From a virus: a stretch of DNA of 27,416 bases. A model generated the notes under the pieces. It was not told the origin of the DNA. It worked only from the letters and a program-made list of their open reading frames with translations, and ran no database searches. Where the stretch lies: positions 1 to 27,416 of the IMG/VR virus record IMGVR_UViG_3300027974_000137; one strand, given 5' to 3'. The stretch's first letter is position 1; every line of letters starts with the position of its first letter. The position numbers were made by a program, and so were the translations under genes. Shown here in pieces: positions 10,035 to 27,416 of this stretch.

Positions 10035-10056
10035 GGGACGACCCGAAGGTCGCCCC
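10035..10056 (-). terminator. GC-rich hairpin with UUCG tetraloop after the capsid block
   Basis: On the minus-strand transcript a nine-pair stem (arms GGGGCGACC and GGTCGTCCC, with one G-U pair) closes on a C(UUCG)G loop, an exceptionally stable RNA tetraloop. It lies in the only sizeable gap between the capsid/decoration genes and the connector gene. No U-tract follows, so it is not a classic intrinsic terminator. An RNA-stability or partial attenuation element that keeps capsid mRNA abundant is more likely. Confidence 0.45.
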
Positions 10057-22835: not shown

Positions 22836-24338
22836 TTAGGAGACCTCCTCGATGTCTGTCCAACCCTCACGTGATTCGTATTCTTCCAGTTCTGCCAGCA
22901 AGCTCACATAAGACTGGACCAAAGCCTTGTTTACCCCTGATCGGCTGGGGCTAAGAGAATCGCTGTTGCGTTCGCCCTCGATCTTGGACCGTTCGCCTGT
23001 GCTGGCAGGAACCTTTACCGACCCGATGTTATCGCCTTCAGAAACCGTTGTTTTAGCTGGATCAGCCTGAGGTAGAATCTCGTTGCGAATCTCATCCCTA
23101 GCGATACCAAGCGAGTCAGCGTCCGGTGAATCAGATTTGCCGTAGCCAACGATATCGCGAGACTCATTAATAGTGATAACTCCACCACCAAGCAGACGTA
23201 TCGCACGATTGGCAGCAATCTGTTCACGGTCATCAAGCTCCTCAACTGGCGAATAATCAAATGTGAACTTGATCCGACCGGACCTTACGTCATCAGGATC
23301 TTCAAAGTCGATCAGCAACTGATGCGTCATTTCGTCCGCAAAGACCTTCTGGAGCGGGATCAACCCGTGGACGTATGCTGCCCTGATGGCATCTGCGTAG
23401 GTTCCGTATGCACCTGTGTTGTCCGTATTCAGCCCCAGGACCGAAGTGTTTAGCCCCATTGCCGCAAGGACCGTAGCCTGTGCTGACTTGGGAATCTCTA
23501 CCAAACCGATCTCTTCCGGCGTGAACCCCATCTTGTGCAGTTCGTAAGCACCCGTCAAAACTGTAGGGTCTCCACGCTGATCACCTGTGAGGGCATCCTT
23601 GAGCCGAGATTTGATCGCCTTGGCGTCGTCCTCTGAGACCGTGAAATCACCCTTGGGGGTCGCGATAAGCCCAGGGACAGCAAAATTGCGAAGCAGAGAG
23701 GCCGTGTAGGTGGATGCCTCGTTTAAAACTGCGATCTCACGCACATGGGCGAGCAGAGGACTCCAGCCGACCCGATCCTGATCCATGTCGATATAACGCC
23801 GGATATGAATCACCCTGTCCGCAGGAACGTCCAGCATTTTCCCATTGATGTTGTATCGCCAGGCGTCGAGGTAGGTGCTACCGTCCGTTGGATAGAGCGG
23901 AGAGACTTTGTCAGCCCTCCAGATCTTCAACTCCACTGGCTCGCCCAGGCGATTTTTGATCTTCTCGATCCAGACATTGCCGTAACAGCTTGCGTCCCTG
24001 ACATATGCACCGACGAACGCTGCTTCACCCACGTAAGGGTGGGGACGGCGTAACAATGTCAACGCAGGGTGATTATGGATCGGATCTTCGATCCCTTCGT
24101 CATCCACTCGCACCACTTGTAGATTTGGGACGGACCAGTTTCTGGCAAGCCAGTCGATACCGGAAGCTACCGTGGAGTTCTTCCATAAACCCTGGATAAG
24201 CATTTCCGTGTAATCGTACGTTGTTCCTGGCAACCAAACGCTATAAGGGCGATATCCACCACCCATCCCACCCCATCCGGAGTAGGGCGTTTTGCCGCGA
24301 AACAGCGATTTGAACGATCCGTATAATCCCATACTCAT
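22836..24338 (-). CDS. Portal protein (HK97 family)
   Basis: I take the ATG at 24338 (500 residues, MSMGLYGSFKSLF); an ATG eight codons upstream (24362) is equally open but no ribosome site supports either, and a leaderless start at 24332 is possible. Portal features in order are a Gly/Tyr-rich start, the N-terminal helix-strand part (STVASGIDWLARNWSVPNLQVVR), LLRRPHPYVG, the clip-side segment YGNVWIEKIKNRLGEPVELKIW, the wing/stem core (VGWSPLLAHVREIAVLNEASTYTASLLRN), and the crown-side GLIPLQKVFADEMTHQLL. The C-terminus is polar and disordered, then helical. The portal forms the dodecameric ring through which DNA is packaged and ejected. A terminase gene is not upstream; an endonuclease gene is. 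Confidence 0.9.
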   Translation of the reverse strand: MSMGLYGSFKSLFRGKTPYSGWGGMGGGYRPYSVWLPGTTYDYTEMLIQGLWKNSTVASGIDWLARNWSVPNLQVVRVDDEGIEDPIHNHPALTLLRRPHPYVGEAAFVGAYVRDASCYGNVWIEKIKNRLGEPVELKIWRADKVSPLYPTDGSTYLDAWRYNINGKMLDVPADRVIHIRRYIDMDQDRVGWSPLLAHVREIAVLNEASTYTASLLRNFAVPGLIATPKGDFTVSEDDAKAIKSRLKDALTGDQRGDPTVLTGAYELHKMGFTPEEIGLVEIPKSAQATVLAAMGLNTSVLGLNTDNTGAYGTYADAIRAAYVHGLIPLQKVFADEMTHQLLIDFEDPDDVRSGRIKFTFDYSPVEELDDREQIAANRAIRLLGGGVITINESRDIVGYGKSDSPDADSLGIARDEIRNEILPQADPAKTTVSEGDNIGSVKVPASTGERSKIEGERNSDSLSPSRSGVNKALVQSYVSLLAELEEYESREGWTDIEEVS

Positions 24339-24367
24339 ATCATAACATAAGCAAACAAGCATAACAA
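24339..24367 (-). promoter_or_regulatory. Possible promoter at the portal start
   Basis: On the minus strand TTGTTA (24367-24362) is followed, after exactly 17 bases, by TATGAT (24344-24339). Transcription would begin near 24332, where an ATG (MGLYG) begins, so the portal message would be leaderless or nearly so. This fits the lack of any ribosome site there but could be coincidence in an AT-rich patch. Confidence 0.3.
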
Positions 24368-24386: not shown

Positions 24387-25217
24387 CTACTGATCGCTAA
24401 TATTCGACCAATTCTTCCCTTTAGCGATATTTAGTATGTGAGATCTGCTTGATCGCGGAAGACCAAATTTCCTTGCTATTCTGACGCAGTCTACTCCGTT
24501 CCCCCAGAGCCTCCTTATCTCTTGTATGTCGTTCTTTGTGAATTGGTTGCATCTCCTGTTTTGCGATTGCTCCTGCCGTGTCGCCCACCGACAATTTTCA
24601 GGCGTGTAATGCCCGTTTACGTCAATACGATCTATGGTCAGTTCGCTGGAATACCCGCTTTGCAAAGCCCAGTCGCGAAAACATTCGTACTTCTGCCATT
24701 GCTCACATACAGTAATTCCGCGATCACCATAGTGCTTGGATGTGTGTCGACCCGGTCTACACCTTTGCCTCATGCCAGACCATGTGGTGTAAAGTCTCTC
24801 GCCTGATCTGCCGTCTCCTGGTCGCCCACGATTTAGACATCCACATGACTTTTTAAAACCATGCCGCACGTTTCCTGGCGTTGATTCAAACTCTGTGCCG
24901 CAGTAGCCGCATTCATACAGGTTCTTCTTGCCGCCGCCGGGAGTCTGCGATGTGAATACCTTGATCAGCTTTGGAGCGTCTTGCGTGTTCTCGATCAGGT
25001 CAGGCTTTGGGGGTCGGCCCAGTCTGCAACTTGACACTTTGCGTTTCGTTGTAGGTTTCGGGCCACGCTTAAGGCATCCGCATGACTTGGTGATTCCGTG
25101 CCTGATGTTTCCAGGCGTACATTCAAATTCTGACCCGCAAAACCCACATTGATACAGGTTGATCTTAATGCCCGACGAGTAGGATCTTACGGCTTCTCTG
25201 ACAAGAATCGGTTCCAT
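24387..25217 (-). CDS. Free-standing HNH-type homing endonuclease with duplicated zinc ribbons
   Basis: The start is the ATG at 25217 (276 residues), with AAAGGAGG four bases upstream; an earlier ATG at 25256 has no site. Residues 23-48 and 102-127 are duplicate zinc-ribbon-like motifs (YxCGxCGxEF then SCGCL, with cysteine pairs C24/C27, C46/C48 and C103/C106, C125/C127). The nuclease part (143-225) starts YTTWSGMRQRC, then HYGDRGITVCEQW, and LTIDRIDVNGHYTPENCRWAT ending in NRR, the pattern of phage HNH homing endonucleases. Residues 227-270 form a likely helix-turn-helix DNA reader. It stands alone before the portal gene, so it is a probable intergenic mobile gene. No intron is visible around it. 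Confidence 0.8.
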   Translation of the reverse strand: MEPILVREAVRSYSSGIKINLYQCGFCGSEFECTPGNIRHGITKSCGCLKRGPKPTTKRKVSSCRLGRPPKPDLIENTQDAPKLIKVFTSQTPGGGKKNLYECGYCGTEFESTPGNVRHGFKKSCGCLNRGRPGDGRSGERLYTTWSGMRQRCRPGRHTSKHYGDRGITVCEQWQKYECFRDWALQSGYSSELTIDRIDVNGHYTPENCRWATRQEQSQNRRCNQFTKNDIQEIRRLWGNGVDCVRIARKFGLPRSSRSHILNIAKGKNWSNISDQ

Positions 25218-25235
25218 GAGACCTCCTTTGGATAA

Positions 25236-25410
25236 ACCCCATTTTATCATGTACACGCAAAAAAAGTCTTTTTTATTTTAAAAAATTCTGAGGGTTGTCT
25301 TTAGTACGTGCATTGCCGACACGCCTGGGGCGGCGGCTCGGAAAAAACCGCGGAATTGTGTCACATAAACCAAGTGTCTCAGTCAAAAAAATGTGGTCGA
25401 TTGTCCTGGG
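25236..25410. other. Gap upstream of the endonuclease gene
   Basis: No gene is seen here on either strand. It contains an AT stretch (25258-25290, runs of A7, T6 and A6) that could loosen the helix, and a GC-rich patch (25320-25345). On the minus strand TAAAAT lies about 30 bases before the endonuclease start as a possible -10, but the -35 partner is poor. The 30 bases just before the array (25382-25410) weakly resemble a decayed repeat unit (GTCAAA then TTGTCCTGGG). Confidence 0.4.
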
Positions 25411-25594
25411 GTCAAACAAGTAGGCCCTGTCCACTGGACAGGGCTCGCAGCTTCATCGTCAAACAAGTAGGCCCTGTCCACTGGACAGGGCTCGCAGCTT
25501 CATCGTCAAACAAGTAGGCCCTGTCCACTGGACAGGGCTCGCAGCTTCATCGTCAAACAAGTAGGCCCTGTCCACTGGACAGGGCTCGCAGCTT
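25411..25594. repeat. Four tandem 47-bp repeats each containing a 21-bp palindrome
   Basis: Units start at 25411, 25458, 25505 and 25552 (the last lacks its final four bases). Each contains arms GCCCTGTCCA and TGGACAGGGC around one C, a perfect 10-1-10 inverted repeat, and a constant 26-base joiner containing TCAAACAAG. All copies are identical, so this is a recent tandem amplification or a functional array. It lies between the small hydrophobic peptide gene and the endonuclease/portal block. Candidate roles: protein-binding array (iteron, operator, partition or packaging site) or a run of mRNA hairpins. The hairpins lack U-tracts, so they are weak as terminators. Confidence 0.9.
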
Positions 25595-25685
25595 ATTTAC
25601 GTCTAGGCTGATTAATCCACCATACCACAATCATAACCACTAGATCACAAGCGATTATGAGCAATTCAGCGATTATGATAATCAT
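25593..25685 (-). CDS. Candidate 30-residue hydrophobic micropeptide
   Basis: The ATG overlaps the preceding stop as TGATG (25687-25683) and the frame runs to TAA at 25593, two bases inside the repeat array. The peptide is almost all aliphatic (MIIIIAELLIIACDLVVMIVVWW) and ends in a basic tail (QPRRK), a classic single-pass small membrane protein. It would be translated by coupling to the Gp88-like gene. Its small size means chance is possible, but the start overlap and clear membrane pattern argue for a real gene. Confidence 0.45.
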   Translation of the reverse strand: MIIIIAELLIIACDLVVMIVVWWINQPRRK

Positions 25686-26545
25686 CAATGCACCTTGTAT
25701 CCTACATGCCCTGGAATCCAGCATGATCGGCAATTATGGGCATTACAGGTATGATCGGCAGTAGTTGTTGCGGGGCATGCCTGGCAATTATCTGGTAGAA
25801 TTGAAAGCTCAGAAAATACCATCGTCGAATTATCAACCCTAGAAAGCGCGTCGATCATAGGAGTGGAATATCTGATAATCAGGTTTGATGGAATCGAATC
25901 GACTTGTTTGACTATGCCAGCTTCACGGGTTGGTAGCCAAAACGATACCTCTGGACAATTCCTGGCAATGTTGATGATTGAATTCAGCATACCCAAAGAT
26001 TGTAAATCGCCCGAATCGAACCAGCGAAAATATTTTGCGTCGATTCCCTTGGATGGATTTTGGACTTTCCAGTTGAGAAAAGAAGACAAAACATATTCAA
26101 AGGCCATTGCGGAACATTTGTAAGTATAGAATCTACGCAACATTGCGACTCTTACAGGCTTCATGACGTAGTATCCTGATAAGGCATAACACCTGTTACA
26201 GGTGGACCCTTGAAGCTTGTGAAGCTTTGAACCAGTCCTGCAAAATTCAGCCGGAATGGACCATCCAAAACAAGGCATTTTACTAGGCTTGGATAATCCA
26301 CCAACAAACTGATAAAGAAGGTCATCCCATTGCGTTTGATTACAAGCCTGGTTGCAAGCTTTGATTATCTTTGGTTGCGTGAACGGATCGGACCAAAACC
26401 CATCTTTCATTGCCCCGTGAAAAGAAACGTCCAGATCTGCTAAGAGATTATCTTTATACGAATAAAACGTCGATGATGGGTCGATCGTCCCCCGATAGGG
26501 GTTTACAGGTGATGCGAATTTTGTCTTGGTTGTCTTGGTTTTCAT
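25685..26545 (-). CDS. Gp88-family cysteine-rich phage protein
   Basis: The 286-residue product matches the layout of the phage Gp88 family: STCNRCYALSGYYV near 114-127 (Cys116 and Cys119 followed by YALSG), a run of basic helix, then FRWFDSGDLQSLGMLNSIINIARNCPEVSFWLPT at 173-206 (the SGD motif), and a C-terminal Cys cluster (Cys254, 257, 267, 272, 275; CQACPAT and CRSCW). The role of the family is unknown; the cysteine arrangement suggests a metal or iron-sulfur site. AGGA eight bases before the ATG. Similar genes occur in mycobacteriophages and in many environmental phages. It is not related in sequence to the packaging machinery. Confidence 0.75.
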   Translation of the reverse strand: MKTKTTKTKFASPVNPYRGTIDPSSTFYSYKDNLLADLDVSFHGAMKDGFWSDPFTQPKIIKACNQACNQTQWDDLLYQFVGGLSKPSKMPCFGWSIPAEFCRTGSKLHKLQGSTCNRCYALSGYYVMKPVRVAMLRRFYTYKCSAMAFEYVLSSFLNWKVQNPSKGIDAKYFRWFDSGDLQSLGMLNSIINIARNCPEVSFWLPTREAGIVKQVDSIPSNLIIRYSTPMIDALSRVDNSTMVFSELSILPDNCQACPATTTADHTCNAHNCRSCWIPGHVGYKVH

Positions 26546-26850: not shown

Positions 26851-26971
26851 TTTCGAACCCTCTTATTTGTTGCCAGTTTTTGCGGGAACAATTCCCGCTA
26901 AATGGATTATCGTCAGGTCCACCTATATTTTCAAGCGATTTTGACAAGATCGGCCTAGATCGTAAGTTCAT
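26840..26971 (-). CDS. Weak candidate small ORF overlapping the acidic gene
   Basis: A frame from ATG at 26971 (43 residues, MNLRSRPILSKSLENIGG and on, ending in RGFENDD) overlaps the start of the acidic gene by eleven bases. A longer version from 27046 adds a Pro/Gly/Arg-rich low-complexity start made from the GGCTGGCTGG repeats, which I consider unlikely to be coding. No clear ribosome site. It may be spurious. Confidence 0.25.
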   Translation of the reverse strand: MNLRSRPILSKSLENIGGPDDNPFSGNCSRKNWQQIRGFENDD

Positions 26972-27046: not shown

Positions 27047-27416
27047 GGGCGTGTTTAGGTAAGTGTCAGTGTATCAGTGTATCTGTAAGTGTCAGTGTAT
27101 CCCTGTGTCAGTGTATGACCTCTTGCCTACTTAGCAGGGGTGCGTGTTAGTGTAAGTGTCAGTGTGTGAGTATGTTACGATTCCTGGCGTGGCAGAATGG
27201 CAGAGAAGTGGCAGAAAATGTCAACGACATGGGCGAATATTAAACAAATTGCGAGGGATCAGAAGTCAATAACATTGTGAAATAAAGAACGAAGTGGGGC
27301 TGGAGGTTGCTGGCAGGGTGATGGGCGGGAGCTTGGGGCGAGGGTGCTGGGCTGGCTCGATTAGGCTTAATTAAGCGTGATCAGGCTTTTTTAAGGAAAG
27401 TGGCAGTGTGTGCAAT
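27047..27416. other. Repeat-rich non-coding region at the right edge
   Basis: No credible gene is visible in this 370-base stretch. It holds three exact copies of a 14-base motif GTAAGTGTCAGTGT (27059, 27085, 27152) plus a partial copy at 27105, three TGGCAGA boxes (27190, 27198, 27209) with further TGGCAG at 27311 and 27401, and a perfect 12-bp palindrome GCTTAATTAAGC (27365-27376). On the minus strand TTGACT (27269-27264) is followed 19 bases later by TTTAAT (27244-27239), a possible weak promoter for the leftward genes. Such iteron-like clusters occur at replication origins and control regions; which it is cannot be told here. Confidence 0.5.
27059..27165. repeat. Iteron-like direct repeats GTAAGTGTCAGTGT
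   Basis: Three perfect copies begin at 27059, 27085 and 27152, with the core GTGTCAGTGT also at 27105. The spacings are 26 and 67 bases, not strictly regular. The repeats are G/T-rich on the plus strand and simple in composition, so partial low-complexity expansion is possible. Confidence 0.65.

Follow-up and report, generated by a model that had tools for sequence, protein, structure and literature searches.

Positions 25411-25594 of a 27,416-base virus contig (IMG/VR record IMGVR_UViG_3300027974_000137; the whole contig is called the window) hold a tandem array of hairpins that we read, at a probability of about 0.64, as a series of intrinsic (Rho-independent) terminators, a common role taking an unusual form. 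This reading builds on five observed features: the anatomy of the array; its position; a strand-specific tail; paired changes in the stems; and the single canonical terminators that replace the array in some relatives. From these we infer termination, its efficiency, the two promoters that the model requires, and the cause of the fast sequence turnover.

The array and its surroundings

Tandem Repeats Finder reports a period of 47, 3.9 copies (the fourth incomplete, with 43 of 47 bases) and 100% identity. Each unit includes one 21-bp palindrome (10-1-10), GCCCTGTCCACTGGACAGGGC, at 25424, 25471, 25518 and 25565. Repeat detection and palindrome search thus bear out the preliminary description, which noted a regular 47-bp pitch, units without mismatches and a perfect palindrome in each. 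The window has no other palindrome with perfect arms of at least 9 and a loop of at most 6. No further copy of GCCCTGTCCACTGGACAGGGC with up to 3 mismatches occurs in the window (shuffled sequence gives 0), and k-mers of the unit are found elsewhere in window-clade genomes at nothing above chance.

The array is best read on the minus strand, because the flanking genes sit there. On this sense strand the unit runs CTGCGA-GCCCTGTCC-AGT-GGACAGGGC-CTACTTGTTTGA-joiner, and the order of elements is promoter, small ORF, GP88 gene, micropeptide, array, conserved block, HNH gene and portal gene:

26906..26934, minus strand: predicted σ70-like promoter, TTGAAA-17-GATAAT, present also upstream of the relatives' GP88 genes
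25685..26545, minus strand: GP88-family gene (PF17338, E 3.7e-22), in the same transcription unit as the micropeptide
25593..25685, minus strand: 30-aa membrane-type micropeptide, MIIIIAELLIIACDLVVMIVVWWINQPRRK; its start overlaps the GP88 stop, and its own stop lies directly before the array
25411..25594, minus strand: 3.9 identical 47-bp units in tandem, from repeat detection, in a slot shared by relatives
25565..25585, minus strand: hairpin 1, met first by the transcript, 7 nt past the micropeptide stop codon, with tail CTACTTGTTT
25518..25538, minus strand: hairpin 2, from palindrome search, terminator scan and tail scoring
25471..25491, minus strand: hairpin 3, from the same three analyses
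25424..25444, minus strand: hairpin 4, likewise
25279..25399, minus strand: conserved non-coding block, GACACTTGGT..CGCGNTTTTTTC..CGTGTCGGC, after the array, once per contig
24387..25256, minus strand: free-standing HNH endonuclease gene, missing from several relatives
22836..24362, minus strand: portal gene, which opens the structural operon that follows the array

The spot had been described as non-coding, which holds for nearly all of the array; the exception is 25593-25594, part of the stop codon of the 30-aa ORF. This micropeptide has no Pfam match. Its homologues are kept in relatives (MRFFIVLILIFCVIDFYCPKLD in contig G004) while GP88 and the array change. The HNH gene is absent from L012, L018, L022, L024 and L025, among other contigs that keep the array. 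The conserved block might, at a guess, be a late promoter or leader of the portal operon; in L063 and L130, its GGACACTTGGT element has the opposite orientation.

Two further features lie around the predicted GP88 promoter. Just past it, at 26882-26898, is a small hairpin, GCGGGAATTGTTCCCGC, whose counterpart in L005 is GCGGAGAATGTCTCCGC; the letters differ in relatives and the pairing is kept. Degenerate 8-9-bp repeats of the CAGTGACAC type occupy 27051-27116, and similar repeats lie upstream of GP88 in L005, L012, L018 and L022.

Stems of the array types are GC-rich, with similar energies between -15.5 and -18.9 kcal/mol. Compared with shuffled sequence, the RNA of the array has a much more favourable fold (z -8.5). 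In the minimum-energy fold of the whole array, neighbouring units pair together rather than forming four separate hairpins; during transcription, local hairpins would form before this inter-unit pairing.

Kept pairing and replaced letters among relatives

A search with the portal protein yielded 20 loci from viral contigs, mostly with 97-99% identical protein, and alignment added more distant relatives (61-69%). Arrays occupy the same slot in at least 18 other contigs, and hairpins stand in tandem in every close-clade contig that spans it. The array is therefore not an isolated oddity of assembly. BLASTN of the region against isolated phages gave no match, nor did the portal search in bacterial genomes.

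The palindrome types comprise GCCCTGTCCAGTGGACAGGGC (pitch 47 or 46), GACCTGCTCAGCTGAGCAGGTC (50), GACCTGCCCGCTGGGGCAGGTC (48), AGCCAGACCCACCGGTCTGGCT (47) and, both at a pitch of 49, CACCGGCCGATCAGGCCGGTG and CACCAGCCGATCCGGCTGGTG. The more distant L126 carries AGGCCCGCTCTGGCGGGCCT at a pitch of 42-43, with ten units seen. Pitch among relatives is thus 42-43, 46, 47, 48, 49 or 50 bp, and the proposal that successive palindromes lie on opposite helix faces, drawn from the 47-bp spacing, does not survive this spread. A repeat-encoded peptide was also discarded, since most pitches (46, 47, 49, 50) are not multiples of 3. A pattern scan for the micropeptide revealed no new array types. The T4/T5 palindrome was matched in three other viral contigs (L142-L144), with neither T tail nor tandem copies.

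Copy number differs between contigs with like flanks (five in L005, four in L010; five in L012, six in L013), although absolute numbers are uncertain because about half of the array contigs break off within the repeats. Two unit types are mixed in the hybrid arrays of L012 and L013, and loop centres are inverted in single copies. Pitch and copy number vary independently of each other and of the GP88 allele. The three GP88 alleles, A, B and C, belong to PF17338; array type T1 lies beside allele A (window, L025) and allele C (L005, L010), and type T4 beside allele C (L022) and allele B (L013). An array that binds GP88 was rejected on the ground that allele and array type swap independently. A slot devoid of a GP88 gene was not observed in any close relative. 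Strongly divergent GP88 alleles adjoin near-identical portal genes in the window, L013, L022, L024 and G004. At one contig end, L014 (1-101) bears an inverted portal-gene fragment (residues 30-62), perhaps from chimeric assembly.

Relatives with a near-identical portal gene display eight different stem sequences. Identity between relatives is 53-77% for the array unit, 78-91% for the 75-base block after the array and 85-97% for the portal gene, and palindromes differ strongly even where portal DNA identity is about 94-97%. Pairing alone is kept. For the eight loop-adjacent stem pairs of 11 hairpin types, all 88 of 88 positions are paired (arm shuffles: mean 51, maximum 73), and among the six close-clade types each stem difference between types is two-sided. 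The preliminary description had proposed to test for varying copy number around a conserved palindrome, and would have counted a palindrome lost when the rest diverges as a refutation: copy number does vary, the letters of the palindrome are not conserved, and the hairpin structure is. These paired changes show that the hairpin is kept; by themselves they would not establish selection on RNA, because hairpin-templated correction could keep the arms complementary.

Termination and its alternatives

Set near the end of a transcription unit, the array has the GC-rich hairpins of intrinsic terminators, and the first lies 7 nt past the micropeptide stop codon (6-9 nt in the close clade, from sequences read directly). 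In the window unit, the 10 bases past the hairpin contain 6 T on the gene strand versus 3 on the other, the first tail base being C. The other close-clade array types and L126 contain 3-7 T in these bases versus 2-5 on the opposite strand. T makes up 41 of 70 tail bases versus 24 of 113 in the rest of the joiners; these counts are descriptive, since the types share ancestry. Together with the kept pairing and the shared slot, the strand-specific tail sustains the RNA hairpins that had been listed earlier as one candidate.

Relatives offer a comparison. A lone textbook terminator, AAGGCCTACCGATATCGGTAGGTCTT followed by TTTTTTTG, comes after the micropeptide homologue of L129, and the matching intergenic region of L127 holds a canonical one. 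Moreover, unrelated bacteria of the genome_contigs collection carry the 21-bp palindrome at nine sites. About seven of these look terminator-like, judged by eye, being A-rich before or T-rich after the palindrome (for example, GGAAAA-palindrome-TTTTTTG and AAG-palindrome-CTTTTTG). In a terminator scan of a 20-kb stretch, the four array hairpins rank top.

This suggests a model in which leftward RNA from the predicted promoter (about 26906-26934) would cross the GP88 gene, the micropeptide and then four hairpins in series, each GC-rich and followed by a U-rich stretch, CUACUUGUUU. A single hairpin would probably release only part of the polymerases; four in series would shield the portal and structural operon from upstream transcription. 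Transcription of the shielded operon would have to begin separately, perhaps within the conserved block at 25279-25399. The units would have arisen by duplication, their identity upheld by recombination or slippage. The array, itself swapped by recombination, would then close a moron-like unit (promoter, GP88, micropeptide) ahead of the portal operon.

Several results count against terminators. By a d'Aubenton-Carafa-type score coded for this analysis, the window units fall below the usual cut-off (D -20) and other close-clade arrays range from -21 to +13, whereas single-copy terminators of relatives score +45 and +17. Array type T6 has a poor tail, and the whole terminator scan gives 22 sites versus 18.9 in shuffled sequence, no excess. 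On the supporting side, T tails just as short follow further intergenic hairpins in these phages, including the one past the capsid genes, and the short T runs may reflect the RNA polymerase of the host. One single terminator is likely at 10035-10056 (minus strand), after the capsid genes: hairpin GGGGCGACCTTCGGGTCGTCCC followed by TTTGGG.

G004 poses a separate difficulty. Its micropeptide is followed by a canonical terminator, ACCTACCGGTACCGGTAGGT plus TTTTTT, and past it lie three or more further palindromes; of the three that are visible, two lack a T tail on the gene strand, and one kind has one. Because G004 keeps these extra hairpins beyond a canonical terminator, they are not simply "the terminator", and a second role beside termination is possible. 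The ends of the L063/G004 contig share 119 identical bases inside the array, so G004 is probably a circular, complete genome of 46,451 bases; its many unit k-mer matches are array sequence at both contig ends. Also in G004, GACAGGCCTG occurs 5 times versus about 0.2 expected.

The G004 hairpins bear on the first alternative, a structured 3' untranslated region or small RNA (for exonuclease protection, processing or as a decoy for a host RNA-binding protein) in which termination is incidental. Their persistence past the canonical terminator fits such an RNA, as do pairing that outlasts sequence change and the fold of the array relative to shuffles (z -8.5). A sequence-specific decoy, however, should keep its loops or stems, and close relatives change both; the T-rich tails and the replacement by single terminators suit termination better. 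We consider this alternative unlikely.

A neutral or selfish palindrome cluster would be homogenised by slippage or recombination, with hairpin-templated correction preserving the arms in the absence of selection. Such a cluster would account for concerted evolution, the hybrid arrays of L012 and L013, the copy-number differences between close contigs, the inverted loop centres in single copies and the G004 units, which are mostly tailless. It accounts poorly for the retention of slot, strand-specific T tails and stop-codon distance together, and for GC-rich stems of like energy across array types, and is quite unlikely.

It is improbable, too, that the array is, beyond a stop signal, a cis element on which selection favours change, with all its hairpins renewed together. 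This proposal draws on the G004 hairpins kept past an already sufficient terminator. The flanks hardly change, and the identity of the sequence would itself matter, for example in limiting recombination or RNA pairing with rival phages.

A protein-bound DNA array (replication origin, packaging start, partition site or silencing operator) was among the candidates of the preliminary description and is very unlikely. The pitch is regular within most genomes; the palindromes are the strongest perfect ones of the window, and of G004 apart from its terminator; the conserved block with AT-rich sequence comes next; and in 5 of 6 genomes gene-strand GC skew is negative over the kilobase that precedes the array and positive past it. 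Against these points, neither palindrome sequence nor pitch is conserved in close relatives, array-like k-mers are absent elsewhere in window-clade genomes, a symmetric DNA site gives the tail asymmetry no role, and the large terminase subunit gene lies about 7-10 kb away. Iterons or parS-like sites were dropped on the same lack of a conserved binding sequence among relatives.

Type III toxin-antitoxin systems have tandem RNA repeats of about 35-48 nt, but an RNA antitoxin or a CRISPR-like or solitary repeat array is highly improbable here: no endoribonuclease or other toxin-like gene was found beside the repeats, where the neighbours are GP88, micropeptide, HNH and portal; many relatives keep the array and lack the HNH gene; unique spacers are absent, all units being identical; and no Rfam family reached threshold, with chance-level matches only.

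Comparison with known systems

The terminator reading places the array among intrinsic and tandem terminators, with which it shares a GC-rich hairpin, a position a few bases past the last stop codon, and relatives that bear a canonical terminator in the same slot; its tail is T-rich on the coding strand, as theirs are, but weak. It differs in having 3-10 identical units in exact tandem, and a stem sequence that turns over between close relatives. Tandem terminators are known; identical units with concerted, very fast turnover are most likely an unusual form of them.

Originally, morons were whole transcription units that had been added to phage genomes (PMC6316719). The region may resemble them in its predicted σ70-like promoter, GP88 gene and terminator-like end, in its place just before the portal operon, and in the swapping of GP88 alleles; unlike them, it has a conserved micropeptide as second gene and ends in a hairpin array rather than one terminator.

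REP/BIME elements are also clusters of palindromes outside genes, with effects that include some at the RNA level, but they keep a conserved sequence and are spread across the genome, whereas the array has variable letters and one slot per genome; with four copies at one place, it was not assigned to them. ToxI and its kin share tandem structured RNA repeats of similar length, but the array lacks a toxin gene and its stems are not conserved.

The literature searched, which covers only a minority of subscription papers, describes no natural array of identical terminators evolving in concert in a phage, and novelty is therefore provisional. If the terminator reading is right, a phage can make a strong block out of weak stops, and the array would be a natural case of a hairpin structure preserved while almost all stem letters are free to vary. 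Short-read phage contigs break at such arrays, so that genome circularity can be hidden, as in G004.

Other repeats also occur in these genomes. Tandem 12-bp CCCAGCCACCTG repeats lie past the canonical terminator in L127 (2760-2815) and in L132 (2165-2300), and CCAGCCAG is over-represented in the window (10 versus about 0.8 expected) as well as in G001 and G002.
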